From the IMG/VR virus record IMGVR_UViG_3300021197_000572, positions 1 to 30,575 of that record: a stretch of DNA of 30,575 nt, one strand, 5' to 3'. The stretch's first letter is position 1; each line of letters begins with the position of its first letter. Shown here in pieces: positions 3,001 to 19,045 of the stretch. The position numbers and the translations under genes are program-made. Source of the DNA: a virus. Under the pieces are notes generated by a model. It saw only the letters and a program-made list of their open reading frames with translations. It made no database searches and was not told the origin of the DNA.

Positions 3001-3031
3001 ACGCTTAAACCTCTCAAGTTTAGGCGTTTTT
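3001..3031 (+). terminator. Rho-independent terminator after the left-end operon
   Basis: ACGCTTAAAC (3001-3010) pairs with GTTTAGGCGT (3018-3027), all 10 positions counting one G-U, with a 7-nt loop, followed by a T run. It closes the operon ending at the endolysin. Its T tract contains the -33 box of the next promoter. Confidence 0.85.
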
Positions 3032-3060: not shown

Positions 3061-3075
3061 AACAAGTCAGATAAA

Positions 3076-3558: not shown

Positions 3559-3983
3559 AGAAGAAAAAAGGAACAAAGGTAAAAGTGACTCCTCAAGGTC
3601 TTGGCGATGTTGTAGAAAACGTATTGGATAGCAAACCAATCAAACCATTGACTAAAGCAATTAAAAAAGCTATATTCAAAGATAATGACGATTGTGGTTG
3701 CGAGGAGCGTAAACAGAAACTAAATAAATTGTTTCCAATAAGACGCAAAGCAGTTAGATGCTTTACAGAAGATCTATATAAGAGATATTCAAATTATATT
3801 AAGAATAGAACTTTAAAACTTTGGAATGACAAAGAGATTGATTTACTGATTGAGTCTTACGCTTACATATTTGCGACACAATACAGAAAAATAGACTTAT
3901 GTAAAAACTGCAATGGAAGTGGAAAACTTCTTTTAAAAATGAGCAACGAATTAGATAAAGTGCATCAAAGCTATGAAGCCTAA
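3540..3983 (+). CDS. Hypothetical protein with Cys clusters, terminase-proximal
   Basis: 147 residues: a very basic N-terminus (KKQVKKKKGTKVKV), then DDCGCEERKQKLNKLFP at about 51-67, and near the C-terminus CKNCNGSGK (about 122-130), a CxxC plus glycine pattern like one DnaJ-type zinc-finger half. I recognise the CGC-x-RK-x2-LN-x2-FP pattern from flavobacterial phages upstream of terminase genes, where its function is unknown. The basic tail suggests nucleic-acid contact. It overlaps the sigma gene by 19 nt and the next gene by 11 nt. Confidence 0.72.
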   Translation: MAKKQVKKKKGTKVKVTPQGLGDVVENVLDSKPIKPLTKAIKKAIFKDNDDCGCEERKQKLNKLFPIRRKAVRCFTEDLYKRYSNYIKNRTLKLWNDKEIDLLIESYAYIFATQYRKIDLCKNCNGSGKLLLKMSNELDKVHQSYEA

Positions 3984-4121: not shown

Positions 4122-4388
4122 ATGGACAAAAGAAAAAACAACGGAGGTAAAAGAGACGGAGCTGGTAGACCAAAGAAAGCAGACGAACTCAAATTGATTG
4201 AGAAGTTAGATAAACTTATTGACAATGAAAAGGTAATTGAAACTTTAGGTAAACAGATCTTTAAAGGAGATAGCAGAGCAATGTCATTATATTTTGGTTA
4301 TAGATATGGAAAGCCAAAAGAAACAGTTGACATAAACTCGAGCGAGGGTTTCAATATAAACTTTAAAGATATTATTAAATTTAAGTGA
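4122..4388 (+). CDS. Terminase small subunit (putative)
   Basis: 88 residues. The N-terminus has GGKRDGAGRPKK (8-19), the Gly/Arg/Pro motif common at the start of phage small terminase-like DNA-binding proteins. A helical segment follows, and the C-terminus (about 65-88) is probably the large-subunit contact. It directly precedes the large subunit and overlaps it by 4 nt (GTGA). It is shorter than typical TerS (100-180 aa), so a core HTH plus oligomerisation helix is all that fits. Confidence 0.72.
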   Translation: MDKRKNNGGKRDGAGRPKKADELKLIEKLDKLIDNEKVIETLGKQIFKGDSRAMSLYFGYRYGKPKETVDINSSEGFNINFKDIIKFK

Positions 4389-5590
4389 TTGAGATACATA
4401 GAAAATTTGAGCCAATAAAAACCTCTGATGCAAGATACTTTATTGTTACTGGAGGGCGAGGCTCAAGTAAATCATATTCTATAAACACCTTATTACTACT
4501 TTTAACTTACGAGGCTGGTCATACGATATTATTTACAAGACTAACGTTAACCTCTGCATACGTTTCAATCATTCCAGAATTTTTAGATAAAATAGAGACT
4601 CTTAATTTAGAGGAACATTTCAATATTACTAAAAGCGAAATCATAAACAAACTTTCTGGTAGCAAGATAATTTTTAAGGGCATTAAAACTTCGAGTGGAG
4701 ACAATACGGCATCGCTAAAATCTTTGACGAATATAACGACTTGGATAATGGACGAGGCAGAAGAATTAATTGACGAAAACATATTTGACAAAATAGATAT
4801 GTCAGTTAGAAATAACAAGAACAAAAACAGAGTTATTTTAATCTTAAATCCAGTCACAAAGGAACATTGGATTTATAGTAGATTTTTTCAAGACAAAGGA
4901 GTACAAGCTGGAATTAATACAACAAAAGGAAATACTACTTATATTCACACAACGTATTTAGACAACAAAGAGAATTTATCAAAAAGTTATTTAGAACAAA
5001 TTGAAAACCTTAAATTAAATAGACCAAGTAAATACGAACATATAATAAATGGCTGTTGGTTAGAAAAAGCAGAGGGCGTTGTTTTCACAAATTGGGAATA
5101 TGGAGAGTTTAATCCAAAAGGACTGCAAACTATATTCGGTCAAGATTACGGATTTAGTATTGATCCAACTACTCTTATTGAGGTGGCTATTGATAAAAGA
5201 GAAAAGATAATATGGGTAAAAGAACATTTATATAAAGCAAAACTAACTACAAGCCAGATAGCAGAAATAAATAAATCTTTTGCTGGTAATAGTTTAATCA
5301 TTGGAGATAGTGCCGAGCCAAGACTTATACAAGAGTTAAATAATCAAGGTAATAATGTAATGGGAGCAATGAAAGGTCAAGGCTCAATATCTCTTGGTAT
5401 TAGTTTGCTATTGGATTATAAATTAATCGTTGAGGTTAACAGTACAAATATTGCAAAGGAGTTAAACAATTTTACGTATGCAGACAAAAAGAGCAAATTA
5501 TTTGTAGACGATTTTAACCATACAATCGATCCGTTAAGATATGTTGCATCTTACGTTTTAGGAAATCAATTCGGAATAGAAATAAGATAA
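4385..5590 (+). CDS. Terminase large subunit
   Basis: 401 residues, with both domains of a phage packaging motor. ATPase: Walker A GGRGSSKS (23-30) and Walker B IMDEAEE (121-127). RNase H-fold nuclease: FGQDYGFSIDP (251-261, Asp254), IIGDSAEPR (305-313, Asp308) and HTIDPLRY (379-386, Asp382) supply the three acidic metal ligands. It pumps and cuts concatemeric DNA at the portal. The start is GTG, inside the TerS stop; a stop codon lies immediately upstream in frame and no ATG precedes Walker A. Unlike the usual order, the portal is not next but 12 kb downstream. Confidence 0.95.
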   Translation: MIEIHRKFEPIKTSDARYFIVTGGRGSSKSYSINTLLLLLTYEAGHTILFTRLTLTSAYVSIIPEFLDKIETLNLEEHFNITKSEIINKLSGSKIIFKGIKTSSGDNTASLKSLTNITTWIMDEAEELIDENIFDKIDMSVRNNKNKNRVILILNPVTKEHWIYSRFFQDKGVQAGINTTKGNTTYIHTTYLDNKENLSKSYLEQIENLKLNRPSKYEHIINGCWLEKAEGVVFTNWEYGEFNPKGLQTIFGQDYGFSIDPTTLIEVAIDKREKIIWVKEHLYKAKLTTSQIAEINKSFAGNSLIIGDSAEPRLIQELNNQGNNVMGAMKGQGSISLGISLLLDYKLIVEVNSTNIAKELNNFTYADKKSKLFVDDFNHTIDPLRYVASYVLGNQFGIEIR

Positions 5591-5591: not shown

Positions 5592-5626
5592 TAACAAAAA
5601 CTTAAAAATTTTATTATTAGTATATG
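5592..5626 (+). promoter_or_regulatory. Putative late promoter motif, tail module
   Basis: TAACAAAAA at 5592-5600, TTATTATTA at 5611-5619, then GTATATG with the ATG at 5624-5626. The same elements at the same spacing, 35 bases from first T to the G of ATG, occur at 13890 and 16644. The AAC upstream element resembles ECF -35 boxes. It does not match the host TTTG/TAnnTTTG promoter. Inferred target of the phage sigma factor. Confidence 0.6.
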
Positions 5627-6232
5627 AAAGTCAAAGTAACATTACCAGAAAACAATAGCGATATTACATTATTGCAGTTTCAGAAGTACGAAAAGTTGAC
5701 AAAGAAAAAAGGTTTAACCAGCCGAGAGTTTACTGCAAGAGTTGTAAGTATATTTAGCAATTTAGATTACCACAGTTTAGACGGAGTTAAACTTGGAGAT
5801 TATGAGGATATTGTTGCTCAAATAACGACTGCATTAAATACGGAGGTTGAATTTAAGAACAGATTTAATCTTGAGGGAGTGGAGTATGGTTTTATTCCAA
5901 ACCTCAACGATATTACAACGGCTGAATATGTGGATTTGGTTGAATACGGAACAAAGCCAGAAACACTAAATAAAGTAATGGCTATATTGTTTAGACGAAT
6001 AACCAATGAAGATGCTTTTGGAAATTATAGAATTGAGAAATATTCTGGAACTGCATTGACTGGCGAGGTTATGAAACAAGCTCCAATGAATATTGTAAAT
6101 GGAGCGTTGGTTTTTTTTTCGAGTTTATCGAAAGAATTAAGAATAACTATCCAGAAATATACGAAAGAGGCAATAGCGAGGGAAATAAAACATCAAGATA
6201 CTTTGAAAAATGGGGTTGGTATGCAACAATAG
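5624..6232 (+). CDS. Tail assembly chaperone, zero-frame product (gpG-like)
   Basis: 202 residues, first gene of the tail module. The N-terminus (VTLPENNSDITLLQFQKYEKL) and overall length match tail assembly chaperones of flavobacterial phages; these small proteins coat the tape measure before the tube forms. At 6111-6119 there is a run of nine T, with codons gtT-TTT-TTT in this frame, followed by a second open frame that runs to 6378. The zero-frame end (LKNGVGMQQ) also looks like a normal C-terminus for this family. It follows the putative late promoter at 5592. Confidence 0.8.
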   Translation: MKVKVTLPENNSDITLLQFQKYEKLTKKKGLTSREFTARVVSIFSNLDYHSLDGVKLGDYEDIVAQITTALNTEVEFKNRFNLEGVEYGFIPNLNDITTAEYVDLVEYGTKPETLNKVMAILFRRITNEDAFGNYRIEKYSGTALTGEVMKQAPMNIVNGALVFFSSLSKELRITIQKYTKEAIAREIKHQDTLKNGVGMQQ

Positions 6233-6378
6233 TTTTATTGGCAGATGACAACATATTAAATATGAAAAAAGTGTTTAAAATACCAGTACACGAAATGCAT
6301 ATATTTTTGGCACATAAATTTGATAAAATGACGCAAGAGGAAAAGTTAAGACGAGGCAGTAACGCAATAGAATTATAA
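5624..6378 (+). CDS. Tail assembly chaperone, -1 frameshift fusion (gpG-T-like)
   Basis: The -1 frame is open from 6037 to 6378 and encodes a convincing protein tail (FEFIERIKNNYPEIYERG..., YFEKWGWYATIVLLADD, ending ...NAIEL) with no usable start codon before its conserved part. The shift site is T-TTT-TTT at 6112-6118 (X-XXY-YYZ). The product would have 165 zero-frame residues plus 86 from the -1 frame, 251 in total. Lambda gpG/gpGT and many siphophages use the same arrangement. The feature spans both frames; coding shifts back one base at 6118. No clear downstream pseudoknot is visible. Confidence 0.72.
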
Positions 6379-6897
6379 ATGAATCAATACACAGAATTAT
6401 TAAGATATTTAAGACAAAGACTTGAGGAAAGCGAGTTTATTAATACCATAACAACTGGTCAAGATATTGATATTAACAAAGCTAATATATTTCCTTTGGC
6501 TAATATCGAAATAAACAATGCAGTTTTTACCAGTAATGCAACTATTCAGTTTTCAGTCCAAATACAATGTTTAGATCTTCGAGATATAAATAAGGAAATA
6601 GTAAACGATAAGTTTTATGAGAATGACAATGCAGTTGACAATTGGAACAATACACTTTCAGCTTTAAATGGCGTTTGGGTAAAAGCACACAGAGGATTTG
6701 TAAATATGGATATAACGGCAAGTGACAGTCCAACAGTTAATAAAATAGAGTTGGCTAATGAAAATCTATTAGACGGCTGGGAGTTAGATTTTAATGTTGA
6801 ATTACCTACAAACCAAATAAGTATTTGCGAGGACTATCTGGCACAAGAAACAAGAGAATTAATATTACAAGAAAATAATGCAAAAATAGAAACATAA
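6379..6897 (+). CDS. Putative tail terminator/completion protein
   Basis: 172 residues. The ATG begins right after the stop of the frameshifted chaperone (TAA at 6376-6378). The pattern (short N-terminal helix LLRYLRQRLEES, then strands around IFPLANIEINNA and IQFSVQIQCLDLRD) resembles small proteins in this position in flavobacterial phages that look like tail terminator/completion subunits. No catalytic motif. One base of its stop is shared with the next ATG. The role is inferred from context and fold impression. Confidence 0.55.
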   Translation: MNQYTELLRYLRQRLEESEFINTITTGQDIDINKANIFPLANIEINNAVFTSNATIQFSVQIQCLDLRDINKEIVNDKFYENDNAVDNWNNTLSALNGVWVKAHRGFVNMDITASDSPTVNKIELANENLLDGWELDFNVELPTNQISICEDYLAQETRELILQENNAKIET

Positions 6898-7370
6898 TGG
6901 CAAATTTAAAAATATCAGAATTACCTCAAGCGTCAACGTTACAAGGCACAGAAGAATTGGCAGTAGTGCAAGGAGGCACAACTAAAAAAAGCACGTTAAA
7001 TGACGTAAGAACTTACGCAACAAGAAACTATATAACACCGACTAACTTAACAGTTATTCCAGATGAGACAGTAAACCTCAACGATGCTACTTATCAGTTT
7101 GTAGATATGCTCCGTTTAAGTTGGAATGGCTCAAATGGTAATATGACTTTGAATCTACCAGACGCAACAGACAGTATAAACGTGAATAGAGTAATAAGAT
7201 TTATTTCAAATGGTGGATTTGCAACTTCAACAAGAGTTAATCTAACACCGATTTTAGGACAGACTTTAGACGGAAGTACTGACGCTTATGTTATAAATAA
7301 GGCATACGAGGGAATACAAGTTTGGAGTGACGGAACAGAGTGGTTTATCATACAGAAAAAAGCATCTTAA
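6897..7370 (+). CDS. Structural protein with fibre/decoration-type N-terminus
   Basis: 157 residues. The opening LKISELPQASTLQGTEELAVVQGGTTKK is a module I know from the N-termini of phage fibre-like and virion decoration proteins (ISELP...GxExxxVVQGGxTKK), here followed by a short beta-rich domain ending in a WSDGTEWFIIQ strand. The gene at 20199 starts with a diverged version of the same module. The position between tail completion genes suggests a minor tail or decoration protein; exact location in the virion unknown. Confidence 0.6.
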   Translation: MANLKISELPQASTLQGTEELAVVQGGTTKKSTLNDVRTYATRNYITPTNLTVIPDETVNLNDATYQFVDMLRLSWNGSNGNMTLNLPDATDSINVNRVIRFISNGGFATSTRVNLTPILGQTLDGSTDAYVINKAYEGIQVWSDGTEWFIIQKKAS

Positions 7371-7934
7371 ATGTCTTTAGAAAACACTTTAAATTTATTT
7401 GGTACTAAAGTCATAGATAGTGCAAAACGTAATCTACAAAAAGAGGACAAGGCTGGTGGTAAATTAGAGAAAACTTTAGATTATAAAGTAATTGTCAGTC
7501 CAAATAGTTTTCAATTTAATATATATGCAGAAGATTATTGGACTTATGTTAATTATGGAGTTAAAGGAGTCGGAGGAAAAAAGGCAGATAAGACAGAGTA
7601 TGTAAATGGTAAAAAGACAATAGTTAAAGGCGAAAAATGGAAAGTTAAAAGGGTAACGAATAACAAATATAGATACAGAGATAAAATGCCACCGACAAGA
7701 GTTTTTAGTAATTGGTCAGTAAGAAAAGGATTAGCACCAAGAAATAAAAAAGGTCAATTTACAACACGAAAAGGATTAATGTTTGCATTGGCAAAATCTG
7801 TTTATCATACTGGAATTGAAACAACCAATTTTTTAACAAAGCCTTTCGAAGATCAATTTAAAAAACTACCAGATGAGGTTGTCGAAATTTATGGTTTGAC
7901 AGTAGAAAATTTATTAAAAACAACAATAAAATGA
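7371..7934 (+). CDS. HK97 gp10-like tail completion/neck protein
   Basis: 187 residues. The N-terminal helix (LFGTKVIDSAKRNL), the YVNYGVKGVGGKK loop (about 61-73) and the basic middle with PPTRVFSNW match the HK97 gp10-like family, which plugs or completes the head-proximal end of the tail. It is somewhat longer than the 110-150 aa norm, mainly from the Lys-rich insertion at about 70-110. Its start follows the previous stop directly, and its last four bases (ATGA) overlap the next gene. Confidence 0.7.
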   Translation: MSLENTLNLFGTKVIDSAKRNLQKEDKAGGKLEKTLDYKVIVSPNSFQFNIYAEDYWTYVNYGVKGVGGKKADKTEYVNGKKTIVKGEKWKVKRVTNNKYRYRDKMPPTRVFSNWSVRKGLAPRNKKGQFTTRKGLMFALAKSVYHTGIETTNFLTKPFEDQFKKLPDEVVEIYGLTVENLLKTTIK

Positions 7935-8983
7935 TTAAGAGTTTAAGTCCATATTATGTAACTACTCCTTGGACAAATCCAGTTGACGGAGTTGTATGTT
8001 CAAGTTACACAATGCTAATATATGTTTGGAATGGAGACGGAAATTTGGAGCCGTCACCAGCAACCTATCAATTTACAAAGAAAAATGTAGCTGGAGAAAC
8101 TGGAAATGACAAAGTAGATATTGCAAGATTGGTTTCTGACTATATTGATTTTACGCCAAAGGATATAACTACAACATCGATAGTTGACGGAAGCAATCAA
8201 ATGTGGGTTGAACACGAGGTTTATTACAATGACGTTGTTACACCTCAACAAATGTCAAATGATATTATGAGTCTTGCTTATAGCTGGGGAGACGAGGGCG
8301 AAAATGTGACTACAATCGCAAATGATATTTTAATAAGACCAATAGAATATTTAACCAGCAGACAAAGTATGTTCGTTGTTCCTTTATTATCTTCAAATAA
8401 ACTTAATTCTGTAACAATAAAAAGTGAGCCAAATAACGAAATAGATACAAGCTTTAATGTTGGAGCAACAAATTTTAGTAGTGAAAAAGTACAATATTTA
8501 TTTGTAAGAATTGCAGACGCACCAACAGACGAATATATTGACATTACTTTTAAAGGAGTAACAGTTACTTTATATCCAGTTGAGGATTGCAGATATGAGC
8601 CATTAGATATATACTTTCAAAATAAAGAGGGAGCAGAGCAGATATATACTTTTTTCAAAGAGAGAACAGAGAGCTTTACAACAACAGACGAAGAATATCA
8701 AAGCAGTCAAGGTCAAGCATTAAACGGCAAACATCAATTTGTAAGATACAACGTAAACGGCAGAGAAAGTTTGGATGTTAATACTGGATTTATAGACGAA
8801 GAAATGAATATTGTTTTGACTGAATTGTTATTATCGGAGAAAATATGGTATAAAGAAAATAATAATCTCTTGCCATTAAATATCGAAAGTAAAAATATGA
8901 CTTATAAGACTCGTCAAAAAGATAGATTAATTCAGTACGATATTAAATTTAAAAAGAGTTATAATTTGGTAAACAATAGCTAA
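7931..8983 (+). CDS. Tail-associated protein of unknown role (350 aa)
   Basis: 350 residues, beta-rich, no signal peptide or membrane segment. The N-terminus (YYVTTPWTNPVDG...SYTMLIYVWNGDG) and middle domain are of a type I associate with flavobacterial phage tail clusters next to the large tail protein that follows. Start fused to the upstream stop (ATGA). It is probably a baseplate or tail-tip component; no enzyme motif seen. Confidence 0.6.
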   Translation: MIKSLSPYYVTTPWTNPVDGVVCSSYTMLIYVWNGDGNLEPSPATYQFTKKNVAGETGNDKVDIARLVSDYIDFTPKDITTTSIVDGSNQMWVEHEVYYNDVVTPQQMSNDIMSLAYSWGDEGENVTTIANDILIRPIEYLTSRQSMFVVPLLSSNKLNSVTIKSEPNNEIDTSFNVGATNFSSEKVQYLFVRIADAPTDEYIDITFKGVTVTLYPVEDCRYEPLDIYFQNKEGAEQIYTFFKERTESFTTTDEEYQSSQGQALNGKHQFVRYNVNGRESLDVNTGFIDEEMNIVLTELLLSEKIWYKENNNLLPLNIESKNMTYKTRQKDRLIQYDIKFKKSYNLVNNS

Positions 8984-8984
8984 A

Positions 8985-11648
8985 ATGAAGTCAGATATTT
9001 ACATAGGTGGAACAAAGCTTGACCAATTTAAAGATGAGTCTGCAACAGTTGTTTCAAATGTTTTAGATATTTCTAATATAGAAAAGAATTTAGGCGACTA
9101 TTCCAAGACTTTTACAGTACCAGCCAGTAAGAATAACAATTTATTATTTAAGCATTGGTATAACGCTAATATTGATAATCAGTTTGATGCCAGAGTAAAA
9201 GTTGACGGAAGAATTGATATTGACGGAATGCCATTTCGAATTGGTGCTTTTAGATTAGCGAAAGTAAATGTTAAAAATCAAAAAGTTAGTAGTTATACAA
9301 TAAACTTTTTTGGCAATTTTGTATCGCTAAAAGATATATTGGGAGAAGATGAATTAAAGGATTTAAGCTTTTTAAATAACTACTCGCATACATTTAGCTA
9401 TAATAACGTAAAAACTGGCTTACAGAGTAGCCTATTTGCTGGAGATGTAAAATATACATTAGCCTCTGGCAAAAGATATTATTATAACTCTAATAATTCA
9501 CTTGACGAAACAGAGCAAATGTCCAATATAGATTGGGACGGAATTTCTGGAGGTAATTCGAGCAACGGAGTTAATTACCAAGATCTACGACCGAGTTTAA
9601 GACTAATAAGAATTATTGAGGCAATTGAACAAGAATACGGCTCAAGTCAAATAGTACAATTAGAGGTTACAGTCAGCACCACAAATAGCTTTAATTCTTT
9701 TTGTAAAATAACTTTAAATGGAGTTACTTATGAAATACCAGTTACATTCGGAACACCAACGACAAACGCTTTACAAATAAGACAATATTTAGAGGCTTTT
9801 GTTCCAGCATATAGAGTAATTCAAAATGGAGCAGTTTTAACAATTACTTCTGTTGTTGGTGGTTTACAATCAGACCCAATATTTGAGCAATATACGGCTA
9901 CTGATATGGTGGCAACTTTTACTGTTATAAAGTACGGAACAGATGAGGAGGGTTTATCATTCTCAAGACAGTTTTTTGACACAGAGGAGTTTAAGAATTT
10001 ATATTTATGGTGCGATGACGATGCGACCGAGGGAGTTGGTCAGCTATTTAGGAAAGTTGAATTTGATACCTCAACAAGTCCAAATATAAGCACAACTACA
10101 AACGAGGGTACTTTTACTTTAAATGCTGGAGATGAGTTAAAATGTAATTTTATAGCTGAAAGAGTAATGCCAAGTCCATTGCCAACAAGTCCAGAAGTAA
10201 ATTACAGAAGTATAAACATTAAATTGATTATAAACGGAGTTGTTTATGCAGATGTAAATAGAACTTATGGCTGGAGGTTTGCACAGTTTGGAGGTTTTAG
10301 CGAGTTAAAAGCAGTTACGAATATGACTTTTATTCCAGAAGTAGCTGGAACTTATACTGCATTTTTTGAAATAACTACAAACGCAAGTGATATAGAGCAA
10401 GTTGAATGGTTTGCTCTTGTAAATGGCACGTCAACTGGTAGTGCAATAGGTAGTGGAGCAACTAATAACGCCTTGCCAAATTTTAGATTTACAGATAATA
10501 TGCCAGAGATAAAAATTATAGATTTTCTCAAAGGCTTATTTGATATGTTTAAATTAGTAGTAATCGCTCAAGATGACGGAACTCTATATATTAACACTTT
10601 AAATAATTACTATCAAGAGGGAGTTAACTACGATTTAACGAACTATATTAATTTTGATACCTATGACGCCAACAGAGGAGAGTTATTAAAGGAAATCGAA
10701 TTTAAGACAGTATCTCCAACGACTAATTTAGCTATTCAGTTTAAAGAAAATAACAATACGCCATACGGAGAGGAGAAAGTTAATTTAAAAGACGCAAACG
10801 GAAAACCATTAGACGGAGGTACTCTAAAAGTTGAAACACCATTTGAGCAACCAGTTTATGAAAGATTAATTGACCAGAATACTGGAGATTTAAAAGACAT
10901 TCAAGTTGCTGGAATTTATGACCGAGATTTAAACCCAGTTAATCCAGCTCCAATAATTCATTATATTAATAATGTAACGATGCCACAATTTACGTCTATA
11001 AAAATGCGAGACGAGGACGGAGTTGGTTTTGAAGTAGCTGGAAATATGAATAATATATCAAGTGATTTTCCATTAAGTCAGCCGAGTTATTCTGTTTTAT
11101 TTGGTAGCGAGTTTTCGACTTGGGACAGTACTTTGATAACAAATACACTTTATAAAAATCATTGGTCAAATTATATCAGTAATATTTTTAATATAAAAAG
11201 AAGAATTTGGAATTATACGGCTAACGATTTGCCTTTAAATATTATAAATAATTTACAGTTAAATGACGTTATAAAAATTAGAGATAATCAATATAGAATA
11301 AATAAATTTACTATTGATTTACTAAATGGAAATACAACTTTTGAACTTATAAACGCTTTTGATACAATACTAATTCAGATGCCAGAACTAATCCAACTAA
11401 CAAGCGATGAGCAAACCATACGATATGAGATAGCTAATTTGCAGAATTATACAATAAATTTAGTATCAAATGGCTTTGGGACATCTTGGATAACAATTCC
11501 AACAGTACATTGGATTAAATTCCCAAACAGATTAGATATTGAAATTGATGCTAACCAAGATGTTGGAGCAGTACCAAGATCAGTATTTATAACATTAAGT
11601 TTAGACGGAGCAGAAATACAAAGAACATTAATCGCACAATCCAACTAA
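8985..11648 (+). CDS. Large tail/baseplate protein with C-terminal BACON-like domain
   Basis: 887 residues. The N-terminal about 120 residues (DLSNIEKNLGDYSKTFTVPAS..., KHWYNAN..., INFFGNFVSLKDILG) match a large Bacteroidota phage family of tail-tip proteins that is probably analogous to distal tail or hub proteins. The last 85 residues end in ITIPTVHW...IEIDANQDVGAVPRS...LIAQ, which has the repeat pattern of BACON domains (Asn/Asp-x-x-Val/Gly-x-x-Arg-Ser, then a strand ending in a Gln). BACON domains are proposed carbohydrate or mucin binders. The gene lies between the unknown tail gene and the tape measure; adsorption or baseplate function is inferred. Confidence 0.7.
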   Translation: MKSDIYIGGTKLDQFKDESATVVSNVLDISNIEKNLGDYSKTFTVPASKNNNLLFKHWYNANIDNQFDARVKVDGRIDIDGMPFRIGAFRLAKVNVKNQKVSSYTINFFGNFVSLKDILGEDELKDLSFLNNYSHTFSYNNVKTGLQSSLFAGDVKYTLASGKRYYYNSNNSLDETEQMSNIDWDGISGGNSSNGVNYQDLRPSLRLIRIIEAIEQEYGSSQIVQLEVTVSTTNSFNSFCKITLNGVTYEIPVTFGTPTTNALQIRQYLEAFVPAYRVIQNGAVLTITSVVGGLQSDPIFEQYTATDMVATFTVIKYGTDEEGLSFSRQFFDTEEFKNLYLWCDDDATEGVGQLFRKVEFDTSTSPNISTTTNEGTFTLNAGDELKCNFIAERVMPSPLPTSPEVNYRSINIKLIINGVVYADVNRTYGWRFAQFGGFSELKAVTNMTFIPEVAGTYTAFFEITTNASDIEQVEWFALVNGTSTGSAIGSGATNNALPNFRFTDNMPEIKIIDFLKGLFDMFKLVVIAQDDGTLYINTLNNYYQEGVNYDLTNYINFDTYDANRGELLKEIEFKTVSPTTNLAIQFKENNNTPYGEEKVNLKDANGKPLDGGTLKVETPFEQPVYERLIDQNTGDLKDIQVAGIYDRDLNPVNPAPIIHYINNVTMPQFTSIKMRDEDGVGFEVAGNMNNISSDFPLSQPSYSVLFGSEFSTWDSTLITNTLYKNHWSNYISNIFNIKRRIWNYTANDLPLNIINNLQLNDVIKIRDNQYRINKFTIDLLNGNTTFELINAFDTILIQMPELIQLTSDEQTIRYEIANLQNYTINLVSNGFGTSWITIPTVHWIKFPNRLDIEIDANQDVGAVPRSVFITLSLDGAEIQRTLIAQSN

Positions 11649-11649
11649 T

Positions 11650-11799
11650 ATGATCGCAGAAATAATAAATACATTAAGACAACACGATTTTTATGGTGCT
11701 GGAGAGTTTACCGAAATCGCAAAAGGGAAAAATGAAATGATAACCTCGTTAAAAGGGTTGAACAGAAAAATTAGGAGAATATGGCAATCACGAAAATAA
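11650..11799 (+). CDS. Small protein between tail-tip gene and tape measure (49 aa)
   Basis: 49 residues, basic C-terminus (GLNRKIRRIWQSRK). It starts just after the previous stop and overlaps the tape-measure gene by 19 nt in another frame. The packing suggests a real co-translated gene, perhaps a tape-measure helper. No family recognised. Confidence 0.5.
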   Translation: MIAEIINTLRQHDFYGAGEFTEIAKGKNEMITSLKGLNRKIRRIWQSRK

Positions 11800-13796
11800 T
11801 AGATGTCAAGGTCAATATAGATGTTGCGAGACAAAATGTTGAGGAATTAAATAAATCTTTTGATTTACAACAAAAATTAGTCAACGAACTTGAAAGGGAG
11901 TTAAACGATTATGAAAAGAAATTAACAAAGACAAGTAAAACGGATTTAGCTGGTAGAAAAAAAGTCAATGACTCAATAAAAGATACAACTCAAAAGCTAA
12001 AAGACGAAAAACTTGGATTAAAACAAGTAACTCAAGACAGAAAAAAAGCAAATAAAGAACTCGCTAAAACTGTTAAAGAGTCTAAAAAATCTGCAAAAGG
12101 TTTTAATTTAATGTCAAAAGCATTAAAAGGAATTGGCGTTGGTTTTAAGGCTTTAGGCATTGGATTGATAGTTTCATTAGTAGCTGGATTGACAGAGGCG
12201 TTTTCAAGAAATAAAAAAGTAATGGACGCCATTGGTATCGTTTTAGGTACTATCGGAAATGTATTTAGTCAAATTACAGACGCTTTAATTACTACTTATG
12301 AGGCAGTTTCTAAATCTTCTGAAAATTTTGATGCTTTAGGAAAAGTTTTAGGTGGAATTTTAGGGGTTGTTATAAACCCATTAAAATTTGCTTTTTTCTC
12401 TATAAAATTAGGTATTCAAGAGGCAATGTTAGCTTGGGAAAATAGTTTTTTTGGAGGTAAAGATGCAGAAAAAATTAAAGAATTAAATGCAGATATATTA
12501 GAAACAAAAAATAGTATTGTTGAAGTATCAGAGGATTTTGTAAAAGCTGGAAGTGATATTGTCAATAATTTTAGTGAGGCAGTAGGCGAGGTTAGTAATA
12601 TTTCAACAATAGCGACAGAAGAACTATCAAAAGTAAATATAAAGTCAGCAAACGAACAAGCAAAATCTTATTCTAAAGCCAAAGAAAATGCCATAATTGC
12701 TCAAGCAGAAAGTAGTAAATTGATTGCTAAATATGAAAGAGAGCAAGAAGTACAAAGACAAATAAGAGACAATGTTAATTTAAGCCTTGAAGAAAGGCAA
12801 GAGGCTAACGACAAACTTTTAAATATATTATCAGAGCAAGAAACGGAATTGCTTAAAAATGCAGATTTACAAATACAATTAGCAAGTTTAGAATTACAAA
12901 GAAATGACTCGGCAGAAAACCAAGCATTATTAATACAAGCACAAGCAGAGAAACAACAAATTTTAGCCGACATAACTGGTAAAACTTCGGAACAAGAAGT
13001 TAATAGAGTTGCTTTACTAAATGAAGAGGTTGCTTTAATGCAGACAATTACAGATAGTGAAAATGAGCGTAACAAAATACAAGCTGAATTTGAGGCAGAA
13101 AGAGAAGTTGACCCATTAAAAAAACTACAACTACAAAAAGAGGCTTTAGACGAAGAAAATAAATTGATACTTGAAGATATTGAGAAAAAAAGGCTTTTAT
13201 ATGCAGAGGGAACACAAGCGAGAATTGACGCAGAACAACAATATAAAAATCAAAAACAAGGAATTGACAATGCTATAACTGTTAATGAAGAGGAGCAAGG
13301 AAAACAAAGAGAGGCAGACTCAAAAGCAGTTGAAGATGCAAAGATTGGAATTGCAAATGCTGGTTTAAATGTTCTTGGTGCTATTGCAGAGGAGGGGAGT
13401 GCTTTGTCTAAAGGAGTAGCAGTAGCACAAGCAACAATGAATACTTACCAAGGTATAACGGCAGCTTTGAGTGCAACTTCAACTGTTCCAGATCCATTAG
13501 GTCAAGCGTTGAAAGTAGCAAATGCAATATCGGTCGGAGTTATGGGTTTAATGAATGTTAAAAAAATATTAGCAACAAAGCCAGTAGAAAAAACTGCTCC
13601 AAATATTAGTCTCGGAGGAGGAGGAGTTGCACCAGCACCACCAAGTTTTAATTTAGTTGAGGGAAGTGCCGACAATCAGATTGCAAACAGTCTAAACGAC
13701 CAAAACCAACAACCAGTTAAAGCATACGTTGTGACAAGTGACGTAACTTCTGGTCAAGAAATGGACAGAAATATTATTGAGAATAGTAGTTTATAA
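11781..13796 (+). CDS. Tail tape measure protein
   Basis: 671 residues. Residues 15-105 are a long Lys/Glu coiled coil. Hydrophobic segments follow at about 118-140, 146-165 and 187-212. A long Gln/Glu/Ala-rich coiled coil spans about 290-510, and an Ala/Gly-rich end (about 530-620, including GVAVAQATMNTYQGITAAL) is typical of tape-measure C-termini. It sets tail length and enters the host membrane at DNA ejection. With the usual 0.15 nm per residue, the tail would be around 100 nm long (inference), consistent with a siphovirus. A terminator follows at 13845. Confidence 0.9.
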   Translation: MAITKIIDVKVNIDVARQNVEELNKSFDLQQKLVNELERELNDYEKKLTKTSKTDLAGRKKVNDSIKDTTQKLKDEKLGLKQVTQDRKKANKELAKTVKESKKSAKGFNLMSKALKGIGVGFKALGIGLIVSLVAGLTEAFSRNKKVMDAIGIVLGTIGNVFSQITDALITTYEAVSKSSENFDALGKVLGGILGVVINPLKFAFFSIKLGIQEAMLAWENSFFGGKDAEKIKELNADILETKNSIVEVSEDFVKAGSDIVNNFSEAVGEVSNISTIATEELSKVNIKSANEQAKSYSKAKENAIIAQAESSKLIAKYEREQEVQRQIRDNVNLSLEERQEANDKLLNILSEQETELLKNADLQIQLASLELQRNDSAENQALLIQAQAEKQQILADITGKTSEQEVNRVALLNEEVALMQTITDSENERNKIQAEFEAEREVDPLKKLQLQKEALDEENKLILEDIEKKRLLYAEGTQARIDAEQQYKNQKQGIDNAITVNEEEQGKQREADSKAVEDAKIGIANAGLNVLGAIAEEGSALSKGVAVAQATMNTYQGITAALSATSTVPDPLGQALKVANAISVGVMGLMNVKKILATKPVEKTAPNISLGGGGVAPAPPSFNLVEGSADNQIANSLNDQNQQPVKAYVVTSDVTSGQEMDRNIIENSSL

Positions 13797-13844
13797 CTTT
13801 TTTTGTATATTAGCAAAGTAATTTTTTGAATTGACTTAATTTTT

Positions 13845-13880
13845 AAACCTCAAGTGTTGTAAAATGCTTGGGGTTTTTTT
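13845..13880 (+). terminator. Rho-independent terminator after tail module
   Basis: AAACCTCAAG (13845-13854) pairs with CTTGGGGTTT (13867-13876, one G-U), with a 12-nt loop, followed by TTTT. It separates the tape-measure gene from the capsid module. Confidence 0.87.
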
Positions 13881-13889
13881 GCAAAAGTG

Positions 13890-13924
13890 TAACAATAACC
13901 TTTTTTATTTATTATTAGGTTATG
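13890..13924 (+). promoter_or_regulatory. Putative late promoter motif, capsid module
   Basis: TAACAATAA at 13890-13898, TTATTATTA at 13909-13917, then GGTTATG ending at 13924. Spacing is identical to the motifs at 5592 and 16644. It fills the whole gap between the terminator and the ATG, so if the terminator works this must contain the promoter of the capsid genes. Confidence 0.65.
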
Positions 13925-15082
13925 AAAACATATAGTGCAAATTTCAAAAAAAATTCTAAAGGCGTTTTCGCCATTTCATTAGTAGACGATCCAGCAACAC
14001 AAGAACACTTTATTGCAATGTCCAAGCCTCAAGAGATAAGACTGGCAGAAGTAGATAAAGAGGAGCGTATTGTTATGGGTTTAGTATTACAACCAGACCA
14101 ATTAATTTACCGAAATCAAGGAGGTCAAGAGTTTAATATTTACTTTAGTGCCGAAACAATAAAAGAATTATCACAGAACTTTTTAAAAAGTGGATTTCAA
14201 TTAAATAGCAAGTTAGAACATAACGAGTCAATCGAGGGCGTTAGTTTTGTAGAAACTTGGTTAGTAGAAAACCCTAAAATTGATAAGTCCACAAATTTTG
14301 GTTTTGAATATCCAAAAGGGAGTTGGATGGCTACAATGAAAGTTGACAATGACGAAATTTGGAACAACTACGTTAAGACTGGAAAAGTAAACGGCTTTTC
14401 AGTAGATGCAATGGTAGATTTGCAAGAAATTGAAATGTCAAATAATAATTTAAAGACAGAAGAAATGTCAAACGAAAAAAAATCATTATTGAGCCAAATG
14501 GAAGTTTGGTTTACAGAGAACATTTTGACTAAAAAGAAAGTTGAAATGGGAGAGGTTAGAAGTGGAGAAATTGTTATCACTTATGACGGAGAAGAATTGG
14601 AAGTTGGTATGCCAGTATTCGTAATGAGCGATGAGGAGCGTATTAGCTTACCAGACGGAGACTATCCAACAGAAATTGGGTTAGTGATAGTAAATGACGG
14701 AGTAGTATCGGAAATCAGAGCAGAGGGAGACGAAGAAGTAGACAAAGAAGTTGGAGAAGAAGAGGAGCTTGGCTATGGTGGAGAGGACGATATGAAAAAG
14801 AAAAAGAAAAAGGAAATGTTAGATAGCGATGTGATAAATTCTATCAAATCAATTTTGGTTAAGTATTCAGAAGATATGGACGCTAAACTTGAAGAAAGAT
14901 TTAACAATTTCTCGACTGAATTGACTTCTATAAAAGAAGAAAATGCGAAACTAAAAAGTGAACTTACTGAATTGAGCAATCAACCAGCATCGAAACCGAT
15001 AGTTTCAAAACCAGCTACTCAAAAAGTGGCATTAACAAGAAAAGGGCGTTTGAGACAAGCAATTGACAACGCAAAAAATTAA
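13922..15082 (+). CDS. XkdF-like prohead protease fused to scaffold domain
   Basis: 386 residues. Residues 1-170 resemble the XkdF-type prohead serine protease: GLVLQPDQLIYR (53-64), YFSAETIKELSQNF (74-87), His100 in LEHNES and Ser160 in VNGFSVDAM fit the catalytic His and Ser. An acidic and Lys-rich stretch (about 270-300) leads to a coiled coil (about 305-352) and a basic tail (about 366-386), as expected for a scaffold released by self-cleavage. It directly precedes the major capsid gene, the usual arrangement. The protease/scaffold fusion replaces two separate genes of other phages. Confidence 0.8.
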   Translation: MKTYSANFKKNSKGVFAISLVDDPATQEHFIAMSKPQEIRLAEVDKEERIVMGLVLQPDQLIYRNQGGQEFNIYFSAETIKELSQNFLKSGFQLNSKLEHNESIEGVSFVETWLVENPKIDKSTNFGFEYPKGSWMATMKVDNDEIWNNYVKTGKVNGFSVDAMVDLQEIEMSNNNLKTEEMSNEKKSLLSQMEVWFTENILTKKKVEMGEVRSGEIVITYDGEELEVGMPVFVMSDEERISLPDGDYPTEIGLVIVNDGVVSEIRAEGDEEVDKEVGEEEELGYGGEDDMKKKKKKEMLDSDVINSIKSILVKYSEDMDAKLEERFNNFSTELTSIKEENAKLKSELTELSNQPASKPIVSKPATQKVALTRKGRLRQAIDNAKN

Positions 15083-15103
15083 TTAATAAAAAGAACATTT
15101 AAA

Positions 15104-16048
15104 ATGGAAAATGTAAATTTAGCAACCACTGTAACAGTAGCGTCAAATTACGCTGGAAAAGTTGCTGGTGGAATTATCGGTTGTGCTTTTAAAGAAGCTG
15201 ACACACTACGTTTAGGTTTATTAACAGTAGCTGAAAACGTAAATTACAAATTGAACTTGAGAAAAATCGCTTATACAAGTGGTTTAACTGATTACACTTG
15301 TGGCTTTACTCCAGCTGGAGCAGTTACTTTGTCAGAAAAAGTATTGGAGATTAAAAAAATAATGAACCCAATACAAGTATGTAAAGAAGATTTTCGTCAA
15401 ACTTGGTCAGAAGATCAAATGGGAGCATCTGCATCAAATCCAAATGAGCCAACTGAAATTTTAGACGCTATTCAAACAAACTTATTAGATAGTACGGCTG
15501 AACAAGTTGACAATGACATCTGGAATGGAAACGCAGCAACTGACGGAGAATTTGGAGGTCTTGTGGCACAATTTGCTGCTGACGGAAACGTTATAAAGCA
15601 CGGAAACGGAATTACTGCTGGAAACGCTCCAATAACGGAGGCAAATGTTGAGGCTGAACTTAAAAAAGTTTTAGAGGCAGTACCAGTTGCAATCAGAAGA
15701 AAAGATTTGACTGTTGCAGTATCTCCAGACGTATTTCAATCATACTGGTTTTATTTAGTATCGAAAGGAATTGCAAATGACGGAAACGCAGAGCCAAAGC
15801 AAGTACGTTTTGGACGTTACACTTTAACAGAAGTAAACGGATTGGCTGACAATACAATAGTTGTTTTTGAAAAAGCTAATGTTGTATTTGCTACTGGGTT
15901 ACAATCAGATTTTAACGAATTATCTTTAGTTGACGAAGATAGCATTGGACTATTAACTGGACAGATAAGAGGGAAACTGGTATATGGAGCAGCAGTAGGT
16001 TACTATTGTTCTCAAGACATTGTTTGGTATTTAAGTACATCAGCATAA
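15104..16048 (+). CDS. Major capsid protein
   Basis: 314 residues, no signal or membrane segment. The pattern of an N-terminal NLATTVTVASNYAG arm, an IMNPIQVCKEDFRQTW segment (about 86-101), and the C-terminal VVFEKANVVFATGLQSDFNE and GQIRGKLVYGAAVGYYCSQDIV strands matches HK97-fold coat proteins of flavobacterial phages. It is immediately downstream of the protease/scaffold gene. Before glycine, codons are almost always GCT and ACT rather than GCA and ACA, part of a genome-wide CAGG avoidance. Confidence 0.85.
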   Translation: MENVNLATTVTVASNYAGKVAGGIIGCAFKEADTLRLGLLTVAENVNYKLNLRKIAYTSGLTDYTCGFTPAGAVTLSEKVLEIKKIMNPIQVCKEDFRQTWSEDQMGASASNPNEPTEILDAIQTNLLDSTAEQVDNDIWNGNAATDGEFGGLVAQFAADGNVIKHGNGITAGNAPITEANVEAELKKVLEAVPVAIRRKDLTVAVSPDVFQSYWFYLVSKGIANDGNAEPKQVRFGRYTLTEVNGLADNTIVVFEKANVVFATGLQSDFNELSLVDEDSIGLLTGQIRGKLVYGAAVGYYCSQDIVWYLSTSA

Positions 16049-16074
16049 TTATTAACCTTAAAAAATAAAATACA

Positions 16075-16587
16075 ATGAGTTGTGATATTAGTCAAGGACG
16101 TTTACGTTCGTGTAAAGACGGATTAGGAGGTAACTCCGTATTATATTTATATAATGGATTAAAAGATGCATTCACTATTACAAGTGGAGAGGCAACTTCA
16201 ATTAATGCTGGTTTAACGGCAGTTTACAAATTTGAATTAGAGGGAGACTTAAATACTCTTGAACAATCTCAAGTTGGAGACCGAAATACTGGAACAGAAG
16301 TTAACACTCAAACATTAACAATTTCACTAAAGAAAATTGATGCGTCTACAAACGCACAGTTTAATTTATTAGTAGCTGGATACCCACAAGCAGTTGTGGT
16401 TGACAGAAACGGAAATTACCATTGTTTAGCGTTAGATGACGGAATGGATTTTACAGTTGTTTCAACTACTGGAGGAGCAAAAACCGATATGAATGGATAT
16501 ACCTTAACTGGTGTAGCTACGACTAAAGATTTGGCTCCATTAATGGATAGTGCAACACAAACTGCATTTGAGTTATTAGTAGCGTAA
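16075..16587 (+). CDS. Putative major tail tube protein (paralogue 1)
   Basis: 170 residues, beta-rich, starting MSCDISQGRLRSCKDG. The layout (VVVDRNGNYHCLALDDGMDF, then TTGGAKTDMNGYTLTGVAT) fits a compact virion structural protein and is shared with the gene at 19615 (CDIS, DRxGN, TTGxxKT). Tail-tube identity is inferred from size, beta character and an otherwise missing tube gene. It is placed after the capsid gene rather than in the tail module. A terminator follows at 16609. Confidence 0.6.
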   Translation: MSCDISQGRLRSCKDGLGGNSVLYLYNGLKDAFTITSGEATSINAGLTAVYKFELEGDLNTLEQSQVGDRNTGTEVNTQTLTISLKKIDASTNAQFNLLVAGYPQAVVVDRNGNYHCLALDDGMDFTVVSTTGGAKTDMNGYTLTGVATTKDLAPLMDSATQTAFELLVA

Positions 16588-16608
16588 TTATATAAATAAT
16601 AATTGACC

Positions 16609-16640
16609 AAAACCCTATTCAGAAATGTTTAGGGTTTTTT
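16609..16640 (+). terminator. Rho-independent terminator after capsid/tube genes
   Basis: AAAACCCT(A) at 16609-16617 pairs with (T)AGGGTTTT at 16630-16638, with a 12-nt loop, followed by further T. It ends the capsid module. Confidence 0.85.
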
Positions 16641-16643
16641 TTA

Positions 16644-16678
16644 TAACAAAAATCACTTTTTTTTATTATTAAGTTATG
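16644..16678 (+). promoter_or_regulatory. Putative late promoter motif, portal/fibre module
   Basis: TAACAAAAA at 16644-16652, TTATTATTA at 16663-16671, then AGTTATG ending at 16678. Third copy of the 35-base motif, again squeezed between a terminator and an ATG. A partial copy (TTATTATTAAG, then ATATG) also precedes the portal start at 16982, but inside the end of the 16676 gene. Confidence 0.65.
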
Positions 16679-16978
16679 GTAATAAATCCAAACAATTTAA
16701 CGCATACAATTAGAGTTGTTCCAAGATACTATCCAACAGATACAATTAATCTATATTTGTACAACGAGGCTACTCAAGAAACGAGCAATCCTAATGCGAC
16801 TTACAATAATGCAGATATATATACTGAAATCACTTTTGATTTTACATTTACGGAAAGTGATAAACACCAAATCAAAATATTAGATAGTAACGATGAGATC
16901 GTTTATCGAGGTTTAAGTATTGCAACAAGTCAAGAGCCACAAGAGTATTTAATTACAAAAAATGCGTATTATTATTAA
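16676..16978 (+). CDS. Portal-proximal small structural protein (100 aa)
   Basis: 100 residues, Ig-like beta pattern with an FDFTFTESDKHQIKILDSND hairpin and IVYRGLSIATSQ near the C-terminus. I recognise this type of protein next to portal genes in flavobacterial phages, function unknown. First gene of its module and three nt upstream of the portal start. It may be a minor capsid or connector accessory. Confidence 0.6.
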   Translation: MVINPNNLTHTIRVVPRYYPTDTINLYLYNEATQETSNPNATYNNADIYTEITFDFTFTESDKHQIKILDSNDEIVYRGLSIATSQEPQEYLITKNAYYY

Positions 16979-16981
16979 GAT

Positions 16982-19045
16982 ATGGACATAAAATTAATAA
17001 CATTATCAAATTACGTAAGACCAAAGGTTGTTGAAAACAAATCCAGAGGCTACGTTTTAAATGGACACCATAATAGCTTTTATCAGTATATCATTGATAG
17101 AAACAACGGAAGTCCAACAAATTCTTCAATAAACGAAACATATACGAGTTTAATTTACGGAGGTGGCTTAACTTACAAGAATGGAAGATACGGAGTTAAT
17201 GATTGGGCGAAATTACAAACAGTATTAAGACCAAATGACGTAAGAAAAATGGTTACAGACTTTCAAGTATTTGGAGAGTTTGCTTGTCAAGTTATTCAGA
17301 CAAAAGGAGGAGATATTTCAAGTATAAAGCATATTCCAAAACAAATGGTTGTGCCGAGTATATGCAATGAAGATTATGAGATTGACAGTTATTGGTATTC
17401 AAGAAACTGGAGAAAAACAAACCAAAACCCACCAGAGCAATTTCCAGCTTTTGGATATGACGCAAATGCTCCAATAAGTATTTTTGTTGGAAGTCCATAC
17501 ACAGTCGGAGACGTATATTTTGCAACTCCAAGCTATTTGGCTGGAATGCCTTATTGTGAATTTGAGGAGGAACTCGCAAATCTAAATATAAACTCAATTA
17601 AAAATGGTTTAAGTGCTGGATATATAATAAACGTACCAAACGGAAAATCACTTACGCCTCAAGAGAAAGACGATTTTGAAAGACAAGTAAGAAATCGACT
17701 AACAAGAACACCAAACGCATCGCAATTTATTTTATCTTTTAATGGTGCTGACGTTGAAATAACAGTTACGCCATTGCCTCAAAATTCTGCAATACACAAA
17801 CAATGGGATTGGTTAAGTGGAGAGGCTAAAAATCAGATTATGACGGCTCACAGAGTTATTTCTCCGAGTATTATTGGTTTAAGCACGTCAAGTGGTTTTA
17901 GTAGCGTTGCAGAAGAAATGGATATGGCAGAGCGTCAAATGGTAAAACGTGTAATTCAGCCTAAAAAAGATTTTATTACTGAAAGTTTTGAGCATATAAT
18001 ATCACAATTTGGAATGAATTTAGATCTTATGTTTAAACCATTAACGGAAGATGAATTAAAAGATAGTAGCGAGGAGAACAATACTGGGATTGGTCTAAAA
18101 AAAAAAGATAGTATTGATGAGTTTATAGAAATGGGCGAAGAAAGTCTTGACGGATATGTTCCTATTGATATAAGACGATGTGACGAGGTTACTTTGACAG
18201 AGGCAGTACTTGACGATTACCTTTTGGAAATGACAAAATCTCCAAAGGCAACACCAGAAAAAAAGAGCAAACAAGATACGAGCTTATTTGCAGTAAGATA
18301 CCGATACGCTGGAGCGCCAAGTCAAAGCAATCAAAGAGAGTTTTGTACAAAGGTATTAAGTGCCAGAAGATTTTACAGAATAGAAGATTTGGATAAGCAG
18401 TCAACTGCTAATTCAGACTTTGCTCCAAGTGGAGATACTTCCTATAATATTTTCCTATTTAAGGGAGGCGTCAATTGTAAACATTGGTTTGAAAGAGTTA
18501 TTTTCTTGAAAGAAAACAATAAAAGAATAACAGTTACAAAGGCAGTTAAAATGATATTGGAATTAGAGCCAAGCGAAAGAAAAGACGCAAAATGGGAAAC
18601 TAATCCAAAGCAAGTCGCTCAAATTGCAGAGAAAAAAAATAATTACTGGAGTTTAGAGCCAAATTATAGAGATAGTGGAGTAACGCCAACAAAATTGGCG
18701 AAAGATGTCGAGGTTGAATTTGAAAGTTATAATGACTATCCAGATAGTGCAAAGAATAACGCTCAAAAAGTTTTAGACTGGAGAGAGAAATACGGAAGTG
18801 AAGTAAAAGGAATGACAAGAGTTGGCTGGGTACGTGCAAACCAATTAGCAAAAGGCAGAAATATCAGTCGTTCAACGATTGCGAGAATGTCAGCATTTCA
18901 AAGACATAAAAAAAACGCTGAAGTAAGTGCTGAAAACAAATCGACTCCTTGGAAAGACAAAGGTTATGTTGCTTGGTTAGGTTGGGGAGGTACTTCTGGT
19001 ATTAACTGGGCGTCAAAGAAATTAAAACAAATAGATAAAAAATAG
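16982..19045 (+). CDS. Portal protein fused to MuF-like and C-terminal phage domain
   Basis: 687 residues in three parts. Residues 1 to about 400: portal, with the N-terminal SLIYGGGLTYK wing, a QVFGEFACQVI segment and TAHRVISPSIIGLST (typical portal clip/stem region). About 432-530: a Cys/His-containing domain (FAVRYRYAG, REFCTKVLSARRFYR, SYNIFLFKGGVNCKHWF) like the C-terminal parts of MuF-type head proteins in Bacteroidota phages. About 582-687: a domain with TRVGWVRANQLAKG, HKKNAEV and PWKDKGYVAWLGWGG, found in various phage head proteins, function unknown. The portal forms the DNA channel; the extra domains probably serve head assembly. It is far from terminase, contrary to the usual order. 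Confidence 0.82.
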   Translation: MDIKLITLSNYVRPKVVENKSRGYVLNGHHNSFYQYIIDRNNGSPTNSSINETYTSLIYGGGLTYKNGRYGVNDWAKLQTVLRPNDVRKMVTDFQVFGEFACQVIQTKGGDISSIKHIPKQMVVPSICNEDYEIDSYWYSRNWRKTNQNPPEQFPAFGYDANAPISIFVGSPYTVGDVYFATPSYLAGMPYCEFEEELANLNINSIKNGLSAGYIINVPNGKSLTPQEKDDFERQVRNRLTRTPNASQFILSFNGADVEITVTPLPQNSAIHKQWDWLSGEAKNQIMTAHRVISPSIIGLSTSSGFSSVAEEMDMAERQMVKRVIQPKKDFITESFEHIISQFGMNLDLMFKPLTEDELKDSSEENNTGIGLKKKDSIDEFIEMGEESLDGYVPIDIRRCDEVTLTEAVLDDYLLEMTKSPKATPEKKSKQDTSLFAVRYRYAGAPSQSNQREFCTKVLSARRFYRIEDLDKQSTANSDFAPSGDTSYNIFLFKGGVNCKHWFERVIFLKENNKRITVTKAVKMILELEPSERKDAKWETNPKQVAQIAEKKNNYWSLEPNYRDSGVTPTKLAKDVEVEFESYNDYPDSAKNNAQKVLDWREKYGSEVKGMTRVGWVRANQLAKGRNISRSTIARMSAFQRHKKNAEVSAENKSTPWKDKGYVAWLGWGGTSGINWASKKLKQIDKK

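Follow-up and report, generated by a model that had tools for sequence, protein, structure and literature searches.

Putative late promoters joined to start codons, and a candidate phage ECF-type sigma factor to read them, in a virus related to Nonlabens phages

We analyzed a stretch of viral DNA of 30,575 bases (IMG/VR record IMGVR_UViG_3300021197_000572; hereafter the window), in which three 35-base units on the forward strand, at positions 5592-5626, 13890-13924 and 16644-16678, each end on the start codon of the first gene of a structural module. It is likely that these units are late promoters read by a phage-encoded sigma factor of the extracytoplasmic function (ECF) type, whose own gene would be expressed early, from a promoter of the host sigma-A type. 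We computed the sites, the homology and fold of the sigma factor, the layout conserved in related phages, and the agreement between promoters within a genome. The nearest named relatives found were the Nonlabens phages P12024S and P12024L (56% identity in the large terminase subunit, TerL, and 38% in the portal protein); 19 proteins of the window have a BLASTP match in these phages, 16 of them in the same circular order. A contig of 3.5 kb from a Bacteroidetes metagenome-assembled genome encodes a TerL 97% identical to that of the window, and a near-identity search of the phage collection with the window returned no match. The host would be a member of the Bacteroidetes, probably flavobacterial. 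For comparison, we used a set of terL loci consisting of the best 80 of at least 448 relatives.

The three units have the form TAACAA(A/T)AA-N10-TTATTATTA-N4-ATG, and their geometry is alike when they are read as AAC-N16-TATTATTA-N4-ATG. On the basis of this pattern and of the relatives, putative -35 elements (TAACAA) were placed at 5592-5597, 13890-13895 and 16644-16649, and putative -10 elements (TATTATTA) at 5612-5619, 13910-13917 and 16664-16671. The first -10 base lies 12 nucleotides before the ATG, and the predicted transcription starts (5624, 13922 and 16676) fall on the A of that codon. The units contain the AAC and the 16-bp spacer of ECF-type promoters, with TATTAT where a CGT-type -10 box would be expected. 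A fourth and weaker candidate at 16950-16984 (forward strand) has TATTATTA 12 nucleotides before the portal ATG at 16982, with TAAT rather than TAAC; it overlaps the 3' end of the preceding gene.

A preliminary description of this DNA had pointed out the identical spacing of the three units, their lack of fit to the host promoter and the way in which two of them fill the space between a terminator and an ATG, and had proposed a motif search of the genome and of related phages. These points stand, and the fourth candidate, which was missing from that description, can be added to them. The exact unit occurs three times in the window, with no other match at up to two mismatches and none in 100 dinucleotide shuffles, and the looser pattern TAAC-N15-TTATTATTA-N4-ATG, again with up to two mismatches, gave four matches against 0.18 expected (shuffle maximum 2). 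The Bacteroidetes sigma-A -7 box, TAnnTTTG, is absent from all three units, which places them outside the sigma-A class, and a generic sigma-70 scan of the window gave no signal (58 sites versus 64.3 in shuffles). Intrinsic terminators on the forward strand close the tail module (13845-13880, -16.4 kcal/mol, z -5.95) and the capsid module (16609-16642, -12.7 kcal/mol, z -3.73); both hairpins are followed by a T run and stand directly before units 2 and 3, so that these units occupy the entire terminator-to-ATG gap. Both were missed by the terminator scan and found by folding. Modules 2 and 3 would therefore depend on their own promoters. Unit 1 starts one base past the end of terL, and folding revealed no hairpin with a T run before it.

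The candidate sigma factor gene lies upstream of terL at 3076-3558 on the forward strand, nested in a TTG-started open reading frame (ORF) at 2986-3558, and was assigned by homology, family profile and fold. Its product of 160 amino acids consists of a sigma2 domain (about residues 2-65) and a sigma4 domain (about residues 88-150), as delimited by the helices of the predicted structure, with no sigma1 or sigma3, which is the domain composition of ECF (group IV) sigma factors. By BLASTP, it is 33% identical over 92 residues, corresponding to the sigma2 half, to gp33 of P12024S, whose record notes a Sigma-70 region 2 (Pfam, 1.4e-5); the E value was 2e-11 for the longer frame and 4e-10 for 3076-3558. 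The neighboring ORF at 3540-3983 was also considered as a sigma homologue and rejected (E 0.38), 3076-3558 being the correct gene. The protein matches phrog_31712, a family of unknown function according to PHROGs. In this region, a predicted host-type promoter of the TTTG/TAnnTTTG pattern (TTTG-N20-TAAATTTG, 3029-3060) and an intrinsic terminator (2998-3030, from the terminator scan and folding) precede the sigma gene, both on the forward strand.

An iterated profile built from the window protein and gp33 identified 64 homologous ORFs, one in each of 64 of the 143 sequences searched. Among the terL loci, a homologue was found in 52 of 80 overall and in all 33 that have 4.5 kb or more upstream of terL, a limit chosen after the data had been seen; at shorter limits, where contigs are cut, the counts were 38 of 43 (3 kb), 42 of 50 (2 kb) and 52 of 72 (1 kb). 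The same profile found no homologue in the more distant terL carriers RAP44 and Harreka_1. Of nine loci on genome contigs, four carry a homologue, four (L148-L151) do not, and one (L143) is too short. A profile of 30 phage homologues matched SigW (4.1e-6, aligning to residues 32-183), SigE and SigL, and at E values of up to 0.1 the models TIGR02937 (sigma70-ECF) and Sigma70_r2 (Pfam) matched 28 and 23 of the 30 members, with best values of 9e-12 and 2e-6, respectively. Moreover, the AlphaFold model of the window protein has two helical domains (mean pLDDT 82.5), its top 13 PDB matches by Foldseek are all ECF sigma chains, and its sigma4 part fits region 4 of Escherichia coli sigma-E in complex with -35 DNA (2.1 Å over 56 columns, E 1.4, probability 0.98). 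In the family alignment (A2), the window lineage has a Thr (NVT) at a position that is Asn in 25 of 30 members, which we mention as a lead only.

The search of related phages proposed in the preliminary description showed that the units recur at the same places in close relatives, with 10 distinct 35-mers over 22 loci, some of them fragments of a single contig. In any one module, variation is confined to positions 10, 12, 13, 17, 29 and 30 of the unit, in a set that was found via the TAAC/TTATTATTA pattern and in which those letters are therefore fixed by the search. Lists of ortholog starts built without this pattern, in which the start codon was picked from the protein alignment and the motif was not used, show the same recurrence. 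In the wider set, the layout is an AAC or AAC-like -35 element, 16-17 bp, a -10 element and the ATG, with letters that are specific to the lineage. The -10 element is CGTTATA in one group (L065-L070, L072-L074, L081, L089, L106), CGTTTATA in another (L077-L079, L083-L085, L090, L095, L098, L099, L103, L113) and of the AGTT type in a third (L080, L086-L088, L096 and others); TGTATTATATAT in L100, CGTATTATATAT in L118 and TGTACATATA in L105 each occur at both modules, as does CGTTATA in the genome-contig locus L146. Many relatives combine an AAC -35 with an NGTT -10. In P12024S, six gene starts, at 179, 3031, 5412, 23961, 25201 and 26802 of NC_018271, have AAC-N16/17-CGTTA with the ATG at 12 nucleotides, so that AAC, the 16-17 bp spacer and a CGT-type -10 box of ECF promoters are all present at these six starts. 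The AAC-N16/17-CGTTA form is also that of P12024L.

Counts over whole loci were also made. In 26 sigma-bearing loci, AAC-NGTT sites precede 15 of the 378 gene starts that have an upstream gap, versus 19 of 14,341 other ATGs. RAP44 and Harreka_1, with 81 gene starts between them, have none, but this control is weak: at the rate of the sigma-bearing phages, about three sites would be expected. When 7-mers at a fixed offset were counted in sigma-bearing loci, the motif was the top word only in P12024S, P12024L and L106, and was tied for this place in the window. Information content was mixed, with 11.66 bits for the gene after terL (41 sequences) versus 6.73 bits for the gene at 6379 (39 sequences), 9.65-11.02 bits for smaller sets of other genes, and 7.38 bits for a protease set that includes phages from the portal search with no sigma factor known; it is useful only for its single-base peaks, C at -29, G at -11 and T at -1.

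If one phage protein reads all promoters of a genome, the bases that it recognizes must change together. Shared ancestry by itself would not produce identical new letters at two separate sites. We compared the promoter before the gene after terL with that before the protease gene, about 8 kb away, in 29 non-redundant phages (two P12024 rows, whose module-1 promoter stands before another gene, were dropped, and the 39 loci left were reduced by similarity; rows lacking the motif were kept). Agreement between the two sites of one genome was 0.66 for the -10 columns versus 0.46 after permutation (p 5e-5) and 0.51 versus 0.40 for the -35 columns (p 5e-5), compared with 0.43 versus 0.39 for the spacer (p 0.044), an imperfect control because columns evolve at different rates, and 0.26 versus 0.30 for the upstream columns (p 0.98). 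Single columns were uneven, -13 and -10 not being significant and spacer column -21 reaching p 0.018. In addition, the -10 types, which were named after inspection, cluster on the tree of the sigma proteins (62 proteins reduced to 38 rows by dropping near-copies and loci with no readable start), requiring 15 changes, where 11 is the smallest number possible, versus a shuffled mean of 25.1, with 0 of 200 shuffles as low; some types require several changes. Such agreement in the box columns is what would be expected if one sigma factor read both promoters. Together with the relatives of the same layout and the accompanying sigma gene, it makes the phage-specific class of late promoters suggested in the preliminary description the best reading of the units.

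A host ECF sigma factor might read these promoters instead, with the phage protein serving some other function or being a relic. F. psychrophilum has seven ECF sigmas and a promoter class with a CGT box, SM6 (PMC9723704). Nevertheless, we consider this improbable: the promoter letters vary by phage lineage, agree within each genome and cluster with the phage sigma tree, and the sigma gene has been kept in every locus with sufficient upstream sequence. A fixed host sigma factor would not give this pattern, although the sigma factors of different hosts could do so in part.

The distance between the promoter core and the ATG is a further property of these sites. Among 93 non-redundant gene starts, 68 have a recognizable -10 core by a list compiled after inspection, and in 57 of the 68 its first base lies exactly 12 nucleotides before the ATG; shuffling gave about 1.3 cores per distance over all 93 starts. 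By gene, these are 33 of 45 starts of the gene after terL, 22 of 43 of the protease gene and 2 of 5 of the gene at 16676, versus 1/42, 0/13, 0/23, 0/25 and 0/14 for other genes, 1/8 for the portal gene and 3/12 for the gene at 19050, whose ortholog in P12024S has its own promoter. In the terL loci, the gene after terL has a core at exactly 12 nucleotides in 65 of 76 cases. The base at -1 is T in 60 of 62 sites versus 467 of 1100 gene starts generally (T, T, C, C, C and A at the six P12024S starts). In general, a transcript is expected to begin about 12 nucleotides after the first base of the -10 element, a point that here coincides with the A of the start codon. A fixed distance to the ATG is not needed where a leader is made, and its presence suggests leaderless mRNAs. 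The A of the start codon is thus the probable first base of the transcript, and the first mRNA of each module would probably be leaderless. Leaderless mRNAs make up 5.5% in F. psychrophilum (PMC9723704), 87% of leaders in F. johnsoniae are longer than 10 nucleotides (PMC6847099), and phage transcripts are often leaderless (PMC5312081).

The tie between motif and ATG at single-base distance could also be expected of a translation-start enhancer, placed in the leader of transcripts whose 5' ends lie further upstream. In flavobacteria, bases close to the start codon adjust translation, with A at -3 and -6 (PMC6847099). This explanation is distinctly improbable in our view, because two copies of the unit occupy all of the space between terminator and ATG, the two boxes are 16-17 bp apart in the manner of ECF promoters (Streptomyces coelicolor, PMC6767563), and genes inside the operons mostly lack the motif.

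The promoters might also be recognized by a different phage factor, a late activator like gp55 of T4 that would recognize the TTATTATTA part alone. T4-type late sigma factors use AT-rich -10 boxes, the fourth site of the window has only the -10 part, and one clade has different -35 words at its two promoters. However, the upstream box agrees within genomes across all 29 phages (p 5e-5), and the ECF-type gene encodes a sigma2 and, in the predicted structure, a sigma4-like domain, which leaves this alternative very improbable. That the units are functionless copies of a duplicated AT-rich stretch, similar by chance or inheritance, has hardly any probability, since, common as AT-rich words are at 31% G+C, none of 100 shuffles gave the unit, the conservation at module starts extends over lineages and the agreement is limited to box columns.

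We infer that the phage sigma factor reads these sites and that they fire late. In the proposed sequence of events, promoters of the TTTG/TAnnTTTG type, such as the one at 3029-3060, would serve the host RNA polymerase for transcription of the sigma gene and the early genes. The phage sigma factor would then bind the host RNA polymerase and direct it to TAAC-N16-TATTATTA, 12 nucleotides before the first ATG of a module, and the first mRNA of each structural module would be leaderless, starting on the A of that ATG.

A number of observations weigh against this interpretation. On the side of the protein, the window sigma factor alone gave no PDB and no Pfam match, and its own match to TIGR02937 (0.0044) lies under the curated cut-off of that model. 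Pfam models of sigma region 4 matched just 2 of the 30 family members at E values of up to 0.1. The AlphaFold model has a pTM of 0.43, and among its Foldseek matches one has an E value below 0.001, with whole-chain TM scores of about 0.3-0.37. Limits below 4.5 kb leave some loci without a sigma gene, and a two-box host-type promoter precedes the sigma gene in 6 of 32 loci. On the side of the sites, the -10 element TATTATTA of the window lacks the CGT of typical ECF boxes, and the -35 words of the CGTTATA clade differ between modules (TATAAA versus GCAAA), which one strict reading of the -35 element leaves unexplained. No core was recognizable in 25 of the 93 non-redundant starts, and 11 of the 76 loci have none at 12 nucleotides before the gene after terL: the core is one or two bases off in L076 and L092, is not found at this start in L075, L082, L110, L131 and L137, and lies 23-25 nucleotides before the ATG in L120 and L132-L134, which may represent a natural variant with a short leader. 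The T at -1 adds little because the gene at 16075, inside an operon, also has it in 20 of 25 starts. The limit of 4.5 kb, the core list and the naming of the -10 types, all settled with the data in view, count on the same side.

The closest known counterparts are P12024S and P12024L (Nonlabens, also given as Persicivirga; genus Inhavirus), which have 16 genes in the same succession as the window, beginning with sigma, passing terL and ending in the portal block, and have a sigma-region-2 protein upstream of terL, as noted in their records. P12024S differs from the window in its -10 element, with CGTTAATA in place of TATTATTA at five of the six starts, and in having one module promoter at the 23961 gene instead of the gene after terL. 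As a separate observation, four small reverse-strand genes of P12024S (L054; 2750-2980, 5123-5365, 23811-23927 and 24839-25135) stand directly upstream of late promoters and look as if gene-and-promoter cassettes had been inserted. The bacterial ECF sigma factors SigW, SigE and SigL consist of sigma2 and sigma4 only, as does the phage protein, and many phage relatives share AAC, the 16-17 bp spacing and an NGTT -10 with bacterial ECF promoters (AAC-N16/17-CGTC), of which those of S. coelicolor sigma-E, with AAC, CGTC and a 16/17 bp spacer, are an example (PMC6767563). Unlike in bacterial ECF systems, the gene belongs to a phage, the promoter is fused to the start codon, and the window has TATTAT for CGTT. 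Many phage relatives likewise share the CGT box with the SM6 promoters of F. psychrophilum, but SM6 serves a host regulon that includes secretion genes, in a species with just 5.5% leaderless mRNAs (PMC9723704). Compared with leaderless phage transcripts in general, what is proposed here is the fusion of a phage-sigma promoter to the start codon throughout a lineage; phage AR9 has 5' leaders of 26-491 nucleotides (PMC5312081).

Late phage sigma factors that redirect the host RNA polymerase to late genes are known, such as gp55 of T4 and gp33/gp34 of SPO1, none of which belongs to the ECF group. The late promoters of T4 consist of one -10-type box and depend on a sliding clamp; the units described here have a conserved second box at -35. 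While late phage sigma factors and leaderless phage transcripts are thus already known, an ECF-group late sigma factor with start-codon-fused promoters across flavophages would be new. No earlier report of such a system or of P12024S/L promoters was found among the matches listed (titles and abstract beginnings of open-access papers), although one could exist. The sigma gene, the ECF-like geometry and the fixed ATG distance pointing to leaderless mRNAs go beyond the preliminary description.

The genes around the units are as follows; terL, the first genes of the three modules and the portal gene are on the forward strand. TerL is encoded at 4385-5590 (phrog_3717, E 2.2e-41). Module 1, on the tail side, begins with a gene of unknown function at 5624-6232. 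Module 2 begins at 13922-15082 with a gene that heads the capsid block and probably encodes the head maturation protease: its best match, phrog_24921, has no function listed, phrog_15223 (protease, 2.6e-11) and phrog_34096 (head maturation protease, 1.2e-7) also match, and so does phrog_1530, labelled as a DNA methyltransferase (4e-19). The first gene of module 3 (16676-16978, 100 amino acids, unknown function) stands directly before the portal gene (16982-19045; phrog_33693, E 1.4e-122); both module starts of unknown function were assessed with PHROGs and orthologs. The portal protein has an extra C-terminal domain (18725-19045, residues about 582-687) with matches in Halorubrum, Vibrio and Roseobacter phages, among others. 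Different parts of the phrog_2859 profile match this domain and a ParB-like protein encoded at 1819-2538. A pair of phrog_19091 genes flanks the portal block (16075-16587, E 3.2e-38; 19615-20193, E 3.3e-13) and is also present in P12024S. In addition to the ParB-like protein, the phage encodes a DNA methyltransferase (27905-28558). On the early side, promoter candidates lie at 25195-25261 (TACATTTG at 25195 and TAAATTGC at 25223, then the A-rich leader AAAACAAAACAAAATG), and similar A-rich leaders precede 383, 1819 and 25409, though not the late starts.

It seems rather probable, on the comparisons made here, that a lineage of Bacteroidetes phages has built its late programme on ECF sigma factors, with promoters fused to start codons, leaderless modules, and co-diversified pairs of sigma factor and promoter that possibly do not cross-react. 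This would provide a proposed early-to-late transcription switch for a group of aquatic Bacteroidetes phages with many viral contigs, and would tie phrog_31712, which is listed without a function, to a proposed role. The dozens of natural sigma-promoter pairs may serve for studying how ECF sigma factors read DNA. The system may also be a test case for the translation of leaderless mRNAs in Bacteroidetes, which do without Shine-Dalgarno sequences and seldom produce leaderless mRNAs of their own; if the interpretation is true, the late modules of these phages would start from leaderless mRNAs, a kind rarely found in their hosts.

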